DNA of 64,000 nucleotides, taken from NCBI RefSeq assembly GCF_910589745.1, contig NZ_OU342399.1:992001-1056000 (forward strand), read 5' to 3'. The notes under the pieces are model-generated. The model did not search any database. It saw nothing but the letters and a program-made list of their open reading frames with translations, and was not told the origin of the DNA. The stretch's first letter is position 1. Each line of letters begins with the position of its first letter. Source of the stretch: Candidatus Arcticimaribacter forsetii (GTDB lineage Bacteria; Bacteroidota; Bacteroidia; Flavobacteriales; Flavobacteriaceae). This document shows positions 22,119-39,119 of the stretch, in pieces. Position numbers and translations under genes: made by a program.

Positions 22119-22419
22119 AAAGCAGGTCTCTTATCGCTGCTCATCTTAGATGAGGAGAGGAAAGTCCGGACACCATAGAGCAGTATAGCGGATAACATCC
22201 GTCGTTCGTTTATTCGAATAGGACAAGTGCAACAGAAAGTATGTACAGGTAATGCTGTAGTGAAATCAGGTAAACTCTATACGGTGCAACGCCAAGTAAA
22301 TTTACGTTTGAGAGCGGCTCGTTCGATGTAAAAGGGTAGGCGGTTTGAGCTTTTAAGTAATTAAAAGCCTAGATAAATGATAAGACTCGACAGAATCCGG
22401 CTTATGGCCTGCTTTTTTT
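22119..22419 (+). ncRNA. rnpB: RNase P RNA (class A)
   Basis: Catalytic RNA that trims tRNA 5' leaders. The 5' AGCAGGTC and 3' GGCCTGCT strands form P1. The universally conserved GAGGAAAGTCCGGAC follows at about 22154, ACAGAAAG and GGTAA-type conserved blocks occur in the middle, and the GACAGAATCCGGCTTA block precedes P1 closure. A T-run directly after P1 (22413-22419) acts as terminator. It overlaps the last codon of the convergent rsmD gene. Confidence 0.95.
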
Positions 22420-31581: not shown

Positions 31582-32877
31582 TTAGTGGATTAAAAATTTT
31601 TTTAAACCTTGGTAATCATTTATCTCAATACTTTTTTTGGTTTTAGATAAGGTTTCTTGTAGTCTTTCAGGAACTTCAACCTTGATGTCCAAAGTTTCTT
31701 CAACAGTATCTAAGAATTTAACAGGATGAGCAGTTTCTAAAAATATACCATATTTATTTGGATGATTTTTTAAATAATCCTTTAATCCTAAATATCCAAC
31801 AGCTCCATGCGGATCTGCAACATATCCCGAGGTTTGGTGTATTTCTTTTAATGCCACTCTTGTTTCTTCATCAGTATATCGATATCCTGATAACATTTCT
31901 TTGAGGTTTTCAAAGTTATTCCCAAAAATCTTTAAGATTCTTATGAAATTCGAAGGATCACCAACATCCATTGCATTTGAAATAGTCGGTGAAGATTTAA
32001 TAGGTTTGTATACTCCTGTTTTTAAATAATCAGGAACAACATCATTAATGTTAGTGCTTGCCACAAAATGATCAATAGGAAGTCCTATTTGATGCGCCAT
32101 TAAACCTGCGCAAATATTCCCAAAATTACCACTGGGAACTGATATGACAAGTGGTTTATTGTGTTTCTTAAGTTCTCTGTAAGCAATAAAATAGTAGAAC
32201 ATTTGAGGTAACCAACGAGCTACATTAATTGAATTAGCTGACGTTAGTTGTTTTTGAGTTGTTATTTCTTGGTCTAAAAAAGCAGTTTTAACCATGTCTT
32301 GACAATCGTCAAAGGTTCCGTTCACTTCAAGAGCGGTAATGTTTTGTCCTAAGGTAGTTAGCTGTTGTTCTTGTACTTTACTTACTTTTCCTTTAGGGTA
32401 GAGGATAACAACTTCAATACCAGAAACGCCTAAAAAACCGTTAGCAACAGCACCTCCTGTATCTCCAGAAGTTGCTACAAGTACGGTTACTTTTTGACTT
32501 GAATTTTCTTTATTAAAATACCCTAAACAACGCGCCATAAAGCGAGCTCCGACATCCTTAAAAGCTAGTGTTGGTCCTTGAAATAATTCTAGAGTTCCTA
32601 TATTGTCATGGATGGGTATGACAGGAAATTCAAAGTCAAGAGTTTCAGAGATTATTTTTTTAAGTTCTAATTCAGGTATACTTCCCTCAAGAAAAGGAGC
32701 AATTGCATCATATGCAATATCAGGAATAGATTTCGATTCAATATTTTCAAAAAATGAATCAGGTAATCGATGTATTTTTTCGGGAAAATATAATCCTCTA
32801 TCTGGAGCGATACCTCGAACTACTGCTTCCTCAAATTTAGCAGGTTCTGATTTGTTATTTAAGCTGTTGTAAATCAT
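31582..32877 (-). CDS. thrC: Threonine synthase
   Basis: A 431-residue PLP enzyme converting O-phosphohomoserine to threonine. The PLP lysine is in PTLAFKDVGARFMAR, VATSGDTGGAVANGFLG binds phosphate, and SVPSGNFGNICAG is the later glycine loop. It is the last gene of thrABC and overlaps thrB by four bases (ATGA type), indicating coupled translation. Confidence 0.96.
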   Translation of the reverse strand: MIYNSLNNKSEPAKFEEAVVRGIAPDRGLYFPEKIHRLPDSFFENIESKSIPDIAYDAIAPFLEGSIPELELKKIISETLDFEFPVIPIHDNIGTLELFQGPTLAFKDVGARFMARCLGYFNKENSSQKVTVLVATSGDTGGAVANGFLGVSGIEVVILYPKGKVSKVQEQQLTTLGQNITALEVNGTFDDCQDMVKTAFLDQEITTQKQLTSANSINVARWLPQMFYYFIAYRELKKHNKPLVISVPSGNFGNICAGLMAHQIGLPIDHFVASTNINDVVPDYLKTGVYKPIKSSPTISNAMDVGDPSNFIRILKIFGNNFENLKEMLSGYRYTDEETRVALKEIHQTSGYVADPHGAVGYLGLKDYLKNHPNKYGIFLETAHPVKFLDTVEETLDIKVEVPERLQETLSKTKKSIEINDYQGLKKFLIH

Positions 32878-33803
32878 TTTGATGAAATAATATGAATACC
32901 CTTAGGGTTAATCTTTGAAATGTGTATTTCAAAATCAATATCCAAAGATTTGAATTCTTTTGACATTGATTTTCCAACTATTTGGGCAGTATTTTCCCCT
33001 TTGCTCAAGGCAAAAATTGAGGGTCCTGATCCAGAAATCCCACTACCTAAAGCACCGTTTTGTATTGCTGCTTCTTTTAAGTTTTTAAAACCTGGAATTA
33101 ATGCTGATCTGTGAGGCTCTATTACTACATCGACTAAAGATCTTCCGATTAACTCATAGTCTTCCGAATATAAACCACTTACCAAAGCTGCAAGATTACC
33201 CCATTGTTCTATTGCTTTTTCAAGTAAAATATTTTTCTTTAAAACTGCTCTTGCATCCGATGTTTTAAGTTCAATTTTAGGATGTAAAACAGTAGCGTAT
33301 AATTCAGAAGGACTCGGCAACGCAATAACATCGGCTTGCTTAGCAGATCGAACCAATGTAAAGCCCCCTAGTAATACAGGGGAAACATTATCTGCATGAG
33401 CAGAACCACTCGCTAGTTCTTCACCCTTCATTGCAAATTTTATTAATTCTTTATTCGTGAAAGGTCTTCCTAGGAGTTCATTTATTCCAAAAACAGCTCC
33501 TGCTGAACTTGCTGCACTGCTTCCAATACCGCTTCCTGCTTTAATTTTCTTGTAAATTTCAATTTCAAAACCACAAGGAGCTTCATGTTCTTCTAAAAGA
33601 GCTAAAGCAGCGACTCCAGCTACATTTTTGTGAGTTTCCAAGGGTAAATCTTGTCCTTCAATTTTTAGGATATGAATTCCTTTTTTGTCTGTTTTTCGGA
33701 TAATCATTTCGTCTCCAACTTGATCTAGGCAAAAACCAAGAACATCAAAGCCGCAAGAAACGTTCGCTACGCTGGCAGGACAAAATATTTTAATTTCATT
33801 CAT
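32874..33803 (-). CDS. thrB: Homoserine kinase
   Basis: A 309-residue GHMP kinase phosphorylating homoserine. The GHMP ATP-binding motif is in IKAGSGIGSSAASSAGAV. GSGISGSGPSIFAL is the C-terminal GHMP motif. It starts three bases after thrA and overlaps thrC by four, so the three enzymes form one translationally coupled unit. Confidence 0.96.
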   Translation of the reverse strand: MNEIKIFCPASVANVSCGFDVLGFCLDQVGDEMIIRKTDKKGIHILKIEGQDLPLETHKNVAGVAALALLEEHEAPCGFEIEIYKKIKAGSGIGSSAASSAGAVFGINELLGRPFTNKELIKFAMKGEELASGSAHADNVSPVLLGGFTLVRSAKQADVIALPSPSELYATVLHPKIELKTSDARAVLKKNILLEKAIEQWGNLAALVSGLYSEDYELIGRSLVDVVIEPHRSALIPGFKNLKEAAIQNGALGSGISGSGPSIFALSKGENTAQIVGKSMSKEFKSLDIDFEIHISKINPKGIHIISSK

Positions 33804-33806
33804 GAC

Positions 33807-36251
33807 CTATCGTTTACCAATTCTAATAATATCTGCAAAAATACCAGATGCAGTAACTTCAGCACCAGCACCAGCGCCCTTAACAATTAAAGGCTGATTA
33901 ATATAACGGTTGGTGTAGAATAAGATAATGTTATCACTTCCTTCAAGATTATAAAAATCATGACCTTCAGGGATTTCTTGAAGACCTACTTTAGCGATTC
34001 CATTTTCTAATTGCGCAACGTATTTCAAACGCGCATCTTTAGCATCTGCTTTTGATAATAAACCATCAAAGTGGTCCTTATGAGTAATCAAGGATTCAAA
34101 GAAGCTATCGTTGTCCGGTGTATCTAAGCATTCTTTTGGAAGAAAAGGAACATTTTCTATTTGATCTAGTTCTATTTCCATTCCACTTTCTCTTGCTAAA
34201 ATCAAAATTTTCCGAGCAACATCAATACCACTTAGATCTATTTTTGGATCGGGTTCTGTATACCCTTCTTTTTGAGCTTGAACAACAACATCTTTGAACT
34301 CAGTTCCTTCTTTGAAGTTGTTAAATACAAAATTTAAACTACCAGAAAGTACAGCTTGAATTTTAACGATTTGATCCCCAGATGCAATTAAATTATTTAA
34401 GGTATCAATTATTGGAAGGCCAGCTCCTACATTTGTTTCGAATAAAAAAGGACTTCCGTATTTTCTTGAAGATCTTTTTAAGTTTTTATAATTCTCTAAG
34501 CTATCTGCACACGCAATCTTGTTACATGTTACAACACCAATGTTATTATTCAGGTAACGCTCATATTCATAAGCAATAGAGGCGTTTGCAGTATTGTCTA
34601 CAAATATGCTATTCCTTAAGTTCAATCCTTTGGCATGATTAAAAAAGGCATTCACATCTGCTTGTACACCGTTTTCAAGATTTTTTTCCCAATTGTTTAG
34701 ATCAAGAGATTCATTCCCTAGGATCATCTTTCTTGAATTAGAGATCGCAATAACTCTGATTCTTAAAAGTAAATTATCCTCAAGATATTTTTTCTGTTTT
34801 TCAATTTGCTCAAGAAGTTTACTCCCTACATTACCAACACCTATTATGAATAGGTTAAGCTCTTTAATATCATTTTCAAAAAAGGTTTCATGTAAGGTAT
34901 TTAAAGCCTTTTGTGTATCCTTTTTGTTTATCATGATCGAAATGTTTCGTTCTGACGCACCCTGAGCAATCGCTCTAATATTCACATTATTCGCTCCAAG
35001 AGAACTAAACATTTTGCCACTTATTCCTTGGTGATTTTTCATGTTGTCACCAACTATAGCAACATTTACAAGATTATTTTCAATACTTGCAGGAGCTACC
35101 TTTTGTAAAGAAATTTCAAAAGCAAACTCTGTATCAATTACTTCTTTAGCTTTTAAATCATCTTCACTTCTTACCGCAATACAAATCGAATGCTCGGAAG
35201 AAGCTTGAGTGATCATGATTACATTAATATTTGAAACTGAAAGAACTTCAAAAAGTCTCTTAGAAAATCCTGGAATTCCTACCATTCCACTTCCTTCAAG
35301 ACTGATTAAACTAATTTCACCGATATGACTGATTCCTTTAACCACACCATTACTTGAGTCATTAGCTGAATTGTCTATTCTAGTTCCAAGATCTTCTGGA
35401 GCAAATGTGTTTTTTATTAAAACCGGGATTTGTTTTTCTACAAGTGGCTGAAGAGTAGGAGGGAAAATTACCTTGGCACCAAAATGTGAAAGTTCCATAG
35501 CCTCGAAATACGATAATTTATTTATCGGTGTGGCTTGTTTTACAAGTTTGGGATTAGAAGTATACATTCCACTAACATCTGTCCAAATTTCAAGTATATC
35601 TGCATTTAAAGCATAGGCTAAAATAGCAGCAGTAAAATCTGAACCACCACGTCCAAGTGTCGAAGAGTTTCCATCGGCATCTCTAGCAACAAACCCTGGT
35701 ACTAAGGTAGTTTTTGAATTGTTACTTTCAAAAAAGGCATCAATTTTATTCTGGGTAGAACTCCAATTAACAATAGATTTATTTCCTTGAATTTGAGTTT
35801 CAATTAAATCTCTACCATCTTTTAAAGCAACATCTATATTGTTAACCTTGAATATTTCATTGATAATGTTACTTGATAAAATTTCTCCATAGGAACTAAC
35901 TTTTGCAATCGTCCTAGGAGTAGTTTCCTTAAGCATCATAACCCCCTCTAAGATGGTTTCTAAATGGTTGAGCTCTGATTTTAAAAAGCTAATTGAACTG
36001 CTTTGGCTTTGAGCAGGGATAGAGGCTCTAATGGGCTCTAGATGACGTTCTTCAATTTTTTTCAGTGTATCAACAAAGTTAGAGTCACCAGACGCCGCTA
36101 TATAGAGAGCTTCTAGTAGAAGATCGGTAACTCCACCTAATGCGGAGACTACAACTACATTTTTTTCATTAACATTTGAAACAATTGAGGCAACTTGAGC
36201 TATATTTTTAGAATTGGCGACAGATGTACCACCAAATTTTAGAATTTTCAT
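33807..36251 (-). CDS. thrA: Bifunctional aspartokinase / homoserine dehydrogenase
   Basis: An 814-residue fusion. The aspartokinase domain starts MKILKFGGTSVANSKNI and has FGRGGSDFTA-like GRGGSDFTAA near 205-214. Two ACT domains around 310-460 bind threonine for feedback inhibition. Homoserine dehydrogenase follows from about 465, with NAD motif FIIGVGNVGSKLL. It catalyses the first and third steps of the threonine/methionine branch. A 120-base leader between the threonine-rich leader peptide and its ATG contains competing stem-loops. Confidence 0.96.
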   Translation of the reverse strand: MKILKFGGTSVANSKNIAQVASIVSNVNEKNVVVVSALGGVTDLLLEALYIAASGDSNFVDTLKKIEERHLEPIRASIPAQSQSSSISFLKSELNHLETILEGVMMLKETTPRTIAKVSSYGEILSSNIINEIFKVNNIDVALKDGRDLIETQIQGNKSIVNWSSTQNKIDAFFESNNSKTTLVPGFVARDADGNSSTLGRGGSDFTAAILAYALNADILEIWTDVSGMYTSNPKLVKQATPINKLSYFEAMELSHFGAKVIFPPTLQPLVEKQIPVLIKNTFAPEDLGTRIDNSANDSSNGVVKGISHIGEISLISLEGSGMVGIPGFSKRLFEVLSVSNINVIMITQASSEHSICIAVRSEDDLKAKEVIDTEFAFEISLQKVAPASIENNLVNVAIVGDNMKNHQGISGKMFSSLGANNVNIRAIAQGASERNISIMINKKDTQKALNTLHETFFENDIKELNLFIIGVGNVGSKLLEQIEKQKKYLEDNLLLRIRVIAISNSRKMILGNESLDLNNWEKNLENGVQADVNAFFNHAKGLNLRNSIFVDNTANASIAYEYERYLNNNIGVVTCNKIACADSLENYKNLKRSSRKYGSPFLFETNVGAGLPIIDTLNNLIASGDQIVKIQAVLSGSLNFVFNNFKEGTEFKDVVVQAQKEGYTEPDPKIDLSGIDVARKILILARESGMEIELDQIENVPFLPKECLDTPDNDSFFESLITHKDHFDGLLSKADAKDARLKYVAQLENGIAKVGLQEIPEGHDFYNLEGSDNIILFYTNRYINQPLIVKGAGAGAEVTASGIFADIIRIGKR

Positions 36252-36348
36252 TTTACGAAATTTTGTTTAGGTTTAAATAGGTTCATATATCTAAACCTTT
36301 TGAGTGTATGAGTGTATTTTTTATGTTTTTGTGAAATAAATTCAAGAT

Positions 36349-36394
36349 CTACAGATATATGATTATAACCCCTAAGGGGTTGTTGTAACTGTAG
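36349..36394 (-). promoter_or_regulatory. Nested stem-loop over the threonine codons of the thr leader
   Basis: In the minus-strand RNA, CUACAG (36389-36394) pairs with CUGUAG (36349-36354). Inside it AACCCC pairs with GGGGUU (palindrome 36367-36381). The 5' arms coincide with the Thr codon run and stop codon of the leader peptide. A ribosome stalled there would block the fold, as in amino-acid attenuators. The following U-run is weak, so a classical terminator is not shown. Confidence 0.45.
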
Positions 36395-36476
36395 TTGAAT
36401 TAAAATTAGGGGCAGTGCTCAACATTAGAGTGTTGAGGGTATTTTCGGTCAATAAAATGTTAATTTTATTATTCAT
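36372..36476 (-). CDS. thrL: Threonine-rich leader peptide of the thr operon
   Basis: A 34-codon ORF from ATG 36476 to TAG, upstream of thrA. It contains nine threonines, with five of the last seven residues being Thr in the order TTVTTTP. This density is far above background and directly upstream of threonine biosynthesis, the hallmark of a regulatory leader peptide. The -7 element TATTTTTG ends four bases before its ATG. A perfect 7-bp hairpin (CTCAACA/TGTTGAG, 36418-36437) lies inside the ORF. I infer translation-coupled attenuation; the gene is too short for standard annotation. Confidence 0.7.
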   Translation of the reverse strand: MNNKINILLTENTLNTLMLSTAPNFNSTTVTTTP

Positions 36477-36480
36477 AGTG

Positions 36481-36488
36481 CAAAAATA
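36481..36488 (-). promoter_or_regulatory. TAnnTTTG -7 element for the thr leader/operon
   Basis: TATTTTTG on the minus strand is followed by four bases and the leader-peptide ATG, so the mRNA would be leaderless or nearly so. Confidence 0.55.
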
Positions 36489-36534: not shown

Positions 36535-36576
36535 AAAAAATAACCCTTAAAAACGAATTATTCGTAAAAAAGGGTT
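36535..36576 (-). terminator. Rho-independent terminator of clpC
   Basis: Arms 36542-36548 and 36570-36576 (AACCCTT/AAGGGTT) with an inner ACGAAT/ATTCGT stem are followed by a T-run on the minus strand, 12 bases past the clpC stop. It insulates clpC from the thr promoter. Confidence 0.85.
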
Positions 36577-36587
36577 TTGGTATTATT

Positions 36588-39119
36588 TTAAGCGTTTATT
36601 TCTAAAGATAATTTTTCTGATTTTCCGTCCCAATCCAGTTTAAAAACATCACCTTCTTTGGTTCTACTGTTAACAATTTCTTCAGCAATTATATCTTCAA
36701 TGTACTTTTGAATTGCTCTGGAAAGCGGTCTGGCGCCATACTTCTTGTCAAAACCGTTGTCTCCAATAAACTCTTTCGCTTTCTTAGAAAGTTTGAATTT
36801 ATATCCTAGTTTATTTACTCTAGTTTCAAGCTTCTTCAATTCTAAATCTACAATCTTCATGATATCCTCTTTTTCAAGACTGTTGAAGATTACAATATCG
36901 TCAACTCTGTTTAGAAATTCAGGAGCAAAAGTCTTTTTTAAGGCACCTTCAATAACTCCTCGCTCAATATCATCTGTTTGTGCCTTTTGTGCAGCAGTCG
37001 AAAATCCTACACCTGTACCAAAGTCTTTAAGCTTACGAGCTCCGATGTTTGAAGTCATTATAATGATTGTATTTTGGAAGTTTATTTTTCTTCCTAAACT
37101 GTCTGTCAAAAAACCATCATCTAGAACCTGAAGGAGCATATTAAATACATCCGGGTGTGCTTTTTCAACTTCATCAAGTAAAATAACAGAGTAGGGTTTA
37201 CGTCTAACTTTCTCACTTAACTGTCCACCTTCTTCATATCCCACATAACCTGGAGGAGCACCAATTAATCTAGATATGGCGAATTTCTCCATGTATTCGC
37301 TCATGTCAATACGGATCAAATTTTCTTCAGATTCAAACATTTCACTTGCGAGAATTTTTGCAAGTTGAGTTTTTCCTACTCCTGTTTGACCTAGGAATAT
37401 AAAAGAACCGATGGGTTTATCAGCAGCTTTTAGACCTGCACGATTACGTTGAATTGCTTTTACAACTTTTTCAACTGCATCTTGTTGGCCAATTAATTTA
37501 GACCCAATAGTATCTCCTAGCTTAGAGAGTTTGTTTTTCTCAGATTTTACAATTTTGTTAACCGGAATACCTGTCATCATTGAAACTACATCAGATATAT
37601 GAGTTTCTGTAACAACAACTCGGTTTAATTTAGATTCTTCATGCCATTTTTCCTGAGCGGATAAAAGGTTTTTTTCAACCCTCTTTTCATCATCTCTTAG
37701 CTTAGCTGCTTCCTCGTATTTTTGCTTTTTAACAACTTCATTTTTGTGTTCTTTAACACGTTCGAGTTCTTCCTCTAAATCAATTACATCTTGTGGAACA
37801 TTCATATTGTTTATATGAACTCGAGAACCTGCTTCATCTAAAGCGTCAATTGCTTTGTCTGGCAGAAAACGATCGGATACATAACGGCTGGTTAGTTCTA
37901 CGCAAGCAACAATTGCTTCATCTGTGAATGAAACATTATGATGACTTTCATATTTTTCTTTTATGTTTTTCAGAATCTCAATAGTTTCTTCTTCGCTCGT
38001 TTGTTCAACGACTACTTTTTGGAAACGTCTTTCTAGAGCTCCATCTTTTTCGATACTTTGTCTGTATTCATCCAAAGTAGTTGCTCCAATGCATTGAATT
38101 TCCCCACGGGCAAGGGCAGGTTTAAACATATTAGAAGCATCAAGGCTTCCGGTAGCCCCACCGGCTCCGACAATCGTGTGGATTTCATCTATAAAAAGAA
38201 TGATGTCATCGTTTTTTTCTAACTCATTCATGACCGCTTTCATTCGTTCTTCGAATTGTCCTCTATATTTTGTTCCAGCGACTAAGCTGGCAAGATCAAG
38301 TGACACTAATCTCTTACCATAAAGTACTCGAGAAACTTTTTTCTCAACAATTCTCAAAGCCAAACCTTCTGCAATTGCAGATTTCCCAACACCTGGTTCT
38401 CCAATTAACAAAGGGTTGTTTTTTTTACGTCTACTTAAAATCTGAGAAACTCGTTCAATTTCTTTTTCACGGCCAACAACAGGATCAAGCTTATCTTCTC
38501 GTGCTAAAGCTGTAATGTCTTTTCCAAAATTATCTAGAACTGGAGTTTTAGATTTTTTCCCTTTTGCTGTTTCTAAAGTAGGAACGAAAGGATTTTCTTT
38601 GTTTTCCTCTGCATCATCTTCCTTTTCGTCGGAGAAAGAGGCCGATGGATTGAAGTCATTGTATTCGTTGTCGGAAGTTAGTAAAAGCTTAAATTGTTCT
38701 TTTGCTAAATCGTAGTTAATGTCTAGTTTTTCAAGGAGTTTAGTGGTAGGGTCATTTTCATTCCTCAAAATGCACAACAACAAGTGTGCTGTGTTAATTA
38801 GATCACTTTGAAACAATTTTGCTTCAAGAAAGGTTGTTTTTAAAGCTCGTTCAGCTTGACGAGTTAAGTGTAAGTTTTTCTTTGAGTTACCAATTCCAGA
38901 ACTGTCTAAAAGAGCTGGATTTAATATCTCTACTTTTCTTCTTAGATTGTCTAAATCTACATCAATTGCATTCAGTATTGAAATTGCTTTCCCTTCGCCA
39001 TCTCTGAGTATACCAAGCATAAGGTGCTCGGTTCCAATATGGTCATGACCTAATCGCAAAGCTTCTTCCTTACTGAAGGAAATAACATCTTTTACTCTTG
39101 GTGAAAAATTATCGTCCAT
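36588..39119 (-). CDS. clpC: ATP-dependent Clp protease ATPase subunit ClpC
   Basis: An 843-residue HSP100 unfoldase. Two ClpN repeats occupy residues 1-150. D1 Walker A GEPGVGKS is near 239-246, a UVR/coiled-coil middle domain with KYEEAAKLRD follows, and D2 Walker A GQTGVGKT is near 577-584. ClpC feeds substrates to ClpP and controls stress responses. In Firmicutes it partners with MecA or McsB, but no such adaptor is adjacent here. It is monocistronic, with a strong terminator after it. Confidence 0.95.
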   Translation of the reverse strand: MDDNFSPRVKDVISFSKEEALRLGHDHIGTEHLMLGILRDGEGKAISILNAIDVDLDNLRRKVEILNPALLDSSGIGNSKKNLHLTRQAERALKTTFLEAKLFQSDLINTAHLLLCILRNENDPTTKLLEKLDINYDLAKEQFKLLLTSDNEYNDFNPSASFSDEKEDDAEENKENPFVPTLETAKGKKSKTPVLDNFGKDITALAREDKLDPVVGREKEIERVSQILSRRKKNNPLLIGEPGVGKSAIAEGLALRIVEKKVSRVLYGKRLVSLDLASLVAGTKYRGQFEERMKAVMNELEKNDDIILFIDEIHTIVGAGGATGSLDASNMFKPALARGEIQCIGATTLDEYRQSIEKDGALERRFQKVVVEQTSEEETIEILKNIKEKYESHHNVSFTDEAIVACVELTSRYVSDRFLPDKAIDALDEAGSRVHINNMNVPQDVIDLEEELERVKEHKNEVVKKQKYEEAAKLRDDEKRVEKNLLSAQEKWHEESKLNRVVVTETHISDVVSMMTGIPVNKIVKSEKNKLSKLGDTIGSKLIGQQDAVEKVVKAIQRNRAGLKAADKPIGSFIFLGQTGVGKTQLAKILASEMFESEENLIRIDMSEYMEKFAISRLIGAPPGYVGYEEGGQLSEKVRRKPYSVILLDEVEKAHPDVFNMLLQVLDDGFLTDSLGRKINFQNTIIIMTSNIGARKLKDFGTGVGFSTAAQKAQTDDIERGVIEGALKKTFAPEFLNRVDDIVIFNSLEKEDIMKIVDLELKKLETRVNKLGYKFKLSKKAKEFIGDNGFDKKYGARPLSRAIQKYIEDIIAEEIVNSRTKEGDVFKLDWDGKSEKLSLEINA

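Follow-up and report, generated by a model that had tools for sequence, protein, structure and literature searches.

The threonine operon thrABC in the window (the whole stretch of DNA that was analysed, 64,000 nucleotides) is very probably preceded by a threonine-sensing leader peptide, as judged from comparison of thrA upstream regions. Taken as a whole, the leader is probably a threonine-responsive, ribosome-mediated attenuator of thrABC that works without an intrinsic terminator. The original prediction had read the region as a threonine leader upstream of thrABC, and sequence comparison strongly supports that reading.

A threonine-rich leader ORF upstream of thrABC

The genes and the elements around the start of the leader are as follows.

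31582..32877, minus strand: thrC, threonine synthase (TIGR00260)
32874..33803, minus strand: thrB, homoserine kinase (NCBIfam thrB)
33807..36251, minus strand: thrA, bifunctional aspartate kinase/homoserine dehydrogenase I (NCBIfam PRK09436, 1014 bits)
36372..36476, minus strand: Thr-rich leader peptide ORF of 34 codons with 9 Thr (from sequence and conservation)
36481..36488, minus strand: sigma-A -7 box TATTTTTG, a perfect match to the TAnnTTTG consensus (from sequence and the box position in F. psychrophilum)
36535..36576, minus strand: inverted repeat with a U-run, following the Clp ATPase gene that lies upstream (from sequence)

The NCBIfam equivalogs PRK09436, thrB and TIGR00260 confirmed the three genes as those of the threonine pathway. 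The leader region lies between thrA and its upstream neighbour, the Clp ATPase gene (36588-39119, minus strand), and the repeat with its U-run at 36535..36576 is an example of how an intrinsic terminator looks in the genome of the window. An RNase P RNA of bacterial class A is also present in the window (22119-22419, plus strand, 207 bits).

The leader ORF encodes MNNKINILLTENTLNTLMLSTAPNFNSTTVTTTP followed by the stop codon and ends in TTVTTTP, the last six sense codons being T-V-T-T-T-P. Exactly 120 nt separate its stop from the thrA ATG at 36251. The predicted length, position, nine threonines, threonine-rich end and distance to thrA were all confirmed on the sequence. When the thrA upstream region in the window was subjected to dinucleotide shuffling, 0.05% of the shuffles contained an ORF that matches the leader in the number of Thr among the last 18 codons, and 0.1% contained one that ends on a hairpin like that at the leader stop codon (H1, below).

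Four bases separate the TATTTTTG box from the ATG of the leader ORF (36476). The TAnnTTTG box occupies -12..-5 in F. psychrophilum (PMC9723704). Because this position would place +1 on the ATG, a leaderless start is predicted for the leader ORF, with transcription beginning at 36476. Leaderless mRNAs make up only 5.5% in F. psychrophilum (PMC9723704). Among the conserved leaders, 78 of 92 have a TAnnTTTG box in the 60 nt that precede their ATG, and over all leaders the gap between box and ATG has a median of 18 nt. The nearly leaderless start originally proposed thus stands as a prediction for the window, where the box is four bases before the ATG, but it is a trait of the subclade.

Conservation of the leader ORF and its threonine codons

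The comparison covered thrA upstream regions of relatives, of the family and of the phylum. Of 112 Flavobacteriaceae-level loci, 92 have a leader ORF before thrA that ends on a small hairpin, compared with 0.4% of dinucleotide shuffles, and an equivalent ORF is present in 69 of 79 named thrA loci, a second set that partly overlaps with the first. The Thr-rich ORF, whose absence from close relatives had been named as grounds for giving up the prediction, is thus conserved. When the hairpin was disregarded and an ORF was required to have five or more Thr among its last 18 codons, 52% of the loci, 0% of reverse complements and 0.27% of shuffles contained one. Threonine accounts for 29% and isoleucine for 11% of the last 18 leader residues, compared with 10.5% Thr in the N-terminal part. 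The leader lies at a median distance of 82 nt upstream of thrA; a Flavobacterium leader of the same type encodes, for example, MKSNSTKYQSTMTTPTRVAIAATIISTTTTTTP, and Kordia algicida OT-1 also has a leader of this type.

Conservation among close relatives holds for most loci, but in the subclade L010-L018 of the window's genus most leaders are shorter and contain 1-4 Thr. Four of these same-genus relatives (L010, L013, L014 and L017) have short leaders with only 1-3 Thr, and the sensor is therefore likely to be weak or decaying in them.

The possibility that the leader peptide is conserved as a functional protein was ruled out, since a codon-substitution test gave only a slight synonymous excess (0.38 vs 0.27 in Flavobacterium and 0.28 vs 0.24 in clade D). 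Outside the threonines the peptide is under slight constraint and drifts nearly freely, as expected of a leader that is read for its codons.

A stop-codon hairpin and a downstream box

The 231-nt leader of the window folds with -39 kcal/mol (z = -4.9), and none of 200 shuffles was equally stable. The predicted elements of this RNA are listed in the order of transcription.

36418..36437, minus strand: H0, a hairpin within the leader ORF, CTCAACA-CTCTAA-TGTTGAG, 36 nt upstream of H1 (from folding)
36389..36401, minus strand: 5' arm of P1, AATTCAACTACAG, overlapping Thr codons 28-29, with 36339-36354 as its partner (from folding)
36367..36381, minus strand: H1, a mini-hairpin AACCCC-TTA-GGGGTT containing the last Thr codon, the Pro codon and the stop TAG
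36353..36361, minus strand: conserved box CATATATCT, family consensus ACATATC/A-A-TCC (from hexamer enrichment and alignment)
36339..36354, minus strand: 3' arm of P1, CTGTAGATCTTGAATT; both arms are nearly invariant in the window's subclade (from folding)
36269..36298, minus strand: H2, a weak AT-rich hairpin between leader and thrA, -9.3 kcal/mol

The nested inverted repeats of the original prediction are therefore real. However, the part that is conserved is the stop-codon hairpin, which that prediction had not singled out, together with the box after it, and not the repeats as a whole. In the family, H1 takes the form ACCC(C)-loop-(G)GGGT (ACCCC-NNN-GGGGT) and is nearly always located at the end of the leader ORF, usually with the stop codon within its loop or 3' side. 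In 89 of 92 leaders H1 opens, in frame, with the last Thr codon as its first three bases, and all four Thr codons are in use across the leaders; the reading frame therefore matters, beyond the nucleotides themselves. An ATAT follows H1 within 35 nt in 87 of 104 leaders. In distant Bacteroidota the hairpin is kept with changed letters, as in CCCGG-TAA-CCGGG (L072) and ACGGG-GTAA-CCCGT (L128).

A general hairpin pattern, searched for genome-wide, lacked specificity (77 matches per strand vs 51 in the control), a problem solved by a covariance model, R1, a 50-position element built around H1 as its core. Matches to R1 were placed by comparison with the thrA coordinates. The 198 Bacteroidota genomes gave 26 matches, one per genome and all directly upstream of thrA, and 60 relatives gave 19, of which 18 are directly upstream of thrA and the odd one has E = 0.04; recovery at thrA is partly by construction, because some of the searched genomes supplied sequences of the model, and the absence of matches elsewhere is not. 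No Rfam family matched the leader at the gathering score, and the sub-threshold matches of a permissive search were unrelated.

It is highly improbable that the Thr-rich ORF arose merely by chance from AC-rich RNA and regulates nothing. The small number of threonines in some same-genus relatives would fit such an origin, but the shuffle and reverse-complement controls, the fixed frame relative to H1 and the restriction of R1 to thrA all argue against it.

The other helices have a narrower distribution. In clade D (23 sequences) the equivalents of H0 and H2 covary: 7 of 8 pairs of the H0 equivalent have changes on both sides, as do 12 of the 22 pairs in the combined H0, H1 and H2 structure. None of 500 shuffles reached this three-helix structure in pairing, in covariation or in both-sided changes, and the values of slid controls were far lower. 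In the window's own subclade H0 shows 87.5% pairing, and shuffles give no support there. Because P1 is almost invariant in this subclade, it is without covariation support. Complementarity between the Thr run and the spacer nevertheless exceeds that of shuffles in the window's genus, with summed z/sqrt(n) of -4.0 and -3.6 for its two subclades; complementarity of the P1 type was not above shuffles in other clades. In five members of clade C (L021, L040, L043, L047 and L051), a stretch of codons around ACGGACATA, early in the leader, pairs with the GTCCGT that follows H1, and L044 and L046 of the same clade carry matching changes, which suggests a clade-specific long-range stem. Pairings of the spacer with the Thr run or with the early ORF are thus significant only within single clades (the window's genus and clade C, respectively) and do not constitute a common mechanism.

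In trp and his leaders the 1:2 hairpin is a pause hairpin. H1 might likewise be a pause hairpin that keeps ribosome and polymerase in step; the polymerase would then pause at the ACATATC box, and the on/off step would lie elsewhere. The overlap of H1 with the stop codon is consistent with this, as is the spacing of the box, which follows H1 by mostly 7-13 nt in relatives and by about 6 nt in the window (CATATATCT). The spacing differs between clades, however, and we regard this role as somewhat unlikely. It is compatible with the attenuator proposed here, and the two are not mutually exclusive.

Terminator, antiterminator and translational gating

The proposal that the leader acts without a U-run holds family-wide. 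A stem with a U-run between leader and thrA is present in 2 of 92 thr loci, and the window is not among them: on the thr strand of this locus no U-run follows the leader structures, including H2, the tail of which is AAACAAAATT. His leaders served as the positive control for the detection of intrinsic terminators. The best spacer hairpin of the thr loci (H2) has a median of -4.0 kcal/mol in the family, compared with -12.8 to -22.9 kcal/mol for the his-leader terminators in relatives, with the genome of the window included.

The genome of the window itself (G000) has such a his leader on C1, at about 1189411-1189467 (minus strand; locus L193). Its peptide MIKTNLHTHHHTSDSSEI begins just after TATATTTG and is followed by the textbook U-run terminator AACCCGTTTGAATATTCAAGCGGGTTTTTTT. 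His-rich leaders with strong terminators are present in 17-18 of 25 his loci of relatives (L180-L204). The original prediction had considered attenuation itself to be notable for this lineage, an assessment that is overturned by these his leaders and by the F. psychrophilum study (PMC9723704). Upstream of ilvD, convincing leaders were limited to three genomes at a greater distance (L225, L230 and L231), other Flavobacteriales in which Ile/Val/Leu-rich leaders followed by U-run terminators precede ilvD-type operons; none was seen in the ilvD loci of the window's genus.

Under classical attenuation of the E. coli type, stalling would shift 1:2/3:4 pairing to 2:3, and H2 would be a weak or degenerate intrinsic terminator. 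When the Thr run of the window locus is blocked in constrained folding, the 3' arm of P1 becomes available for pairing with the 5' arm of H2 (CATATATCT/AGATATATG), and P(H2) falls from 0.97 to 0.52. T-runs stand beside H2 in L002 and L005, and two Thr leaders from another family, which belongs to the same class but to a different order (L132 and L135), have strong U-run terminators of -16 and -21 kcal/mol. The pairing was nevertheless rejected as a conserved mechanism, because even the sister sequences L003-L008 of the window's subclade remain unchanged in constrained folding. A second candidate, a switch in clade D in which the Thr run would pair with the 5' arm of H2 (ATTACAA twice), was not above shuffles (mean z 0.15) and was also rejected. 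No conserved, mutually exclusive antiterminator was found by constrained folding, in which P(H2) is indifferent to ribosome position except in the window sequence and a few others. Since blocking the ribosome footprint does not generally switch H2, no conserved on/off RNA switch was found. Together with the lack of a U-run in 90 of 92 loci and an H2 far weaker than the his terminators, this makes classical attenuation an unlikely description of the thr leader. The terminators of L132 and L135 imply that both thr-leader designs occur within the phylum, and a change of mechanism between these loci and the Flavobacteriaceae is possible.

Control could also be post-transcriptional, the position of the leader ribosome altering the thrA translation start or the stability of the mRNA and not transcription. 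In favour of this reading, intrinsic terminators are absent, and the conserved H0, H1 and H2 could serve as processing or stability elements. Translational gating of the ermC type was not seen in the four loci folded, however: the predicted openness of the thrA start is nearly constant across ribosome states (0.49 to 0.54 in the window). The median distance of 82 nt between leader and thrA further disfavours reinitiation, and post-transcriptional control is quite improbable.

The spacer is rich in C and poor in G. C exceeds G in 83 of 86 loci, with a mean C-G of +0.098 compared with -0.006 in the window controls (p = 3e-9), which are 27 upstream regions from one genome; a skew of this kind is weak evidence for Rho and by itself no proof of a rut site. 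A rho gene is present in the genome. Rho may thus be the off-switch of the thr leader and is the likeliest candidate, although we put this at somewhat under an even chance.

Proposed mode of action

In the preferred reading, a ribosome-mediated attenuator without intrinsic terminator, transcription would begin at or beside the leader ATG and a ribosome would translate the 34-codon peptide. If charged Thr-tRNA is scarce, this ribosome would stall on the Thr codons at the end of the ORF, between H0 and H1; if threonine is plentiful, it would reach the stop codon within H1 and depart. The Thr codons occupy the approximately 20-37 nt that separate H0 from H1, roughly one ribosome footprint, and H1 is positioned where the front of a ribosome stalled there would be. 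The arrangement of H0, Thr codons and H1 has the anatomy of ribosome-mediated sensing of the threonine supply. Stalling or release would therefore determine whether H1 (and in the window's genus also P1) folds and whether the C-rich, G-poor spacer is exposed. In the threonine-replete state the freed RNA would be terminated by Rho and not by a U-run hairpin, and a stalled ribosome would prevent this by a TnaC-like occlusion. Expression of thrABC would accordingly be expected to rise upon threonine starvation.

A broader suggestion, which we make tentatively, is that the Thr leader, the stop-codon hairpin and the ACATATC box define a Bacteroidota-wide, thr-specific RNA class that is terminator-free and acts via Rho occlusion or a ribosome-controlled pause. 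If so, a thr-specific class would have replaced, or arisen apart from, the classical attenuator that serves his in the same cells.

Comparison with known leader systems

The closest functional counterpart is E. coli thrL (the Rfam Thr leader), and the thr leader probably works in a similar way. Both have a Thr-rich ORF directly upstream of thrABC, with Thr codons clustered towards its 3' end and overlapped by hairpins. Unlike thrL, the window leader has no Rfam match, no U-run terminator and no conserved antiterminator; a fixed ACCCC/GGGGT hairpin closes its ORF and is followed by an ACATATC box, and it is SD-less, with a predicted leaderless start and fewer Ile codons. It is not classed as a classical thrL-type leader, because an intrinsic terminator and a conserved antiterminator were tested for and not found.

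A termination step by Rho has been shown for E. coli tnaC, where the tna operon also senses free tryptophan via the nascent peptide. The mycobacterial cys operons have Cys-rich leaders without a conserved terminator hairpin, for which a Rho step was proposed (PMC1262725). Like the thr leader, both the cys leaders (PMC1262725) and tnaC have their regulatory codons near the stop and lack a conserved terminator hairpin; they differ from it in amino acid, phylum and RNA structure.

The his leader L193 resembles the thr leader of the same genome in being short, in adjoining a TAnnTTTG box and in its richness in the amino acid of its pathway, and differs from it in ending on the terminator AACCCGTTTGAATATTCAAGCGGGTTTTTTT. 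One genome thus contains both a textbook terminator attenuator (his) and a leader without terminator (thr). This internal contrast permits a direct test of translation-termination coupling in SD-less Bacteroidota, and of whether Rho serves amino-acid sensing. The thr element is a regulatory RNA that is specific to thr, not yet listed, and conserved in several families of Bacteroidota; annotators could use it to call thr leaders that are missed by Rfam.

In the phylum, Vitreschak et al. are also said to have reported attenuators in Bacteroidetes, in 2004. B. thetaiotaomicron has small ORFs that were noted to resemble attenuating leaders (PMC7366714), and a 2021 study of F. psychrophilum reported strong indications that amino-acid operons are preceded by leader-peptide attenuators (PMC9723704). 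The leaders of the latter study are likewise Flavobacteriaceae leader peptides that precede amino-acid biosynthesis operons and have TAnnTTTG promoters; its main text, in contrast, names neither a thr element nor a terminator-less class (PMC9723704). Leader-peptide attenuation had thus already been proposed for flavobacterial amino-acid operons, and what is new here is its terminator-less thr variant.
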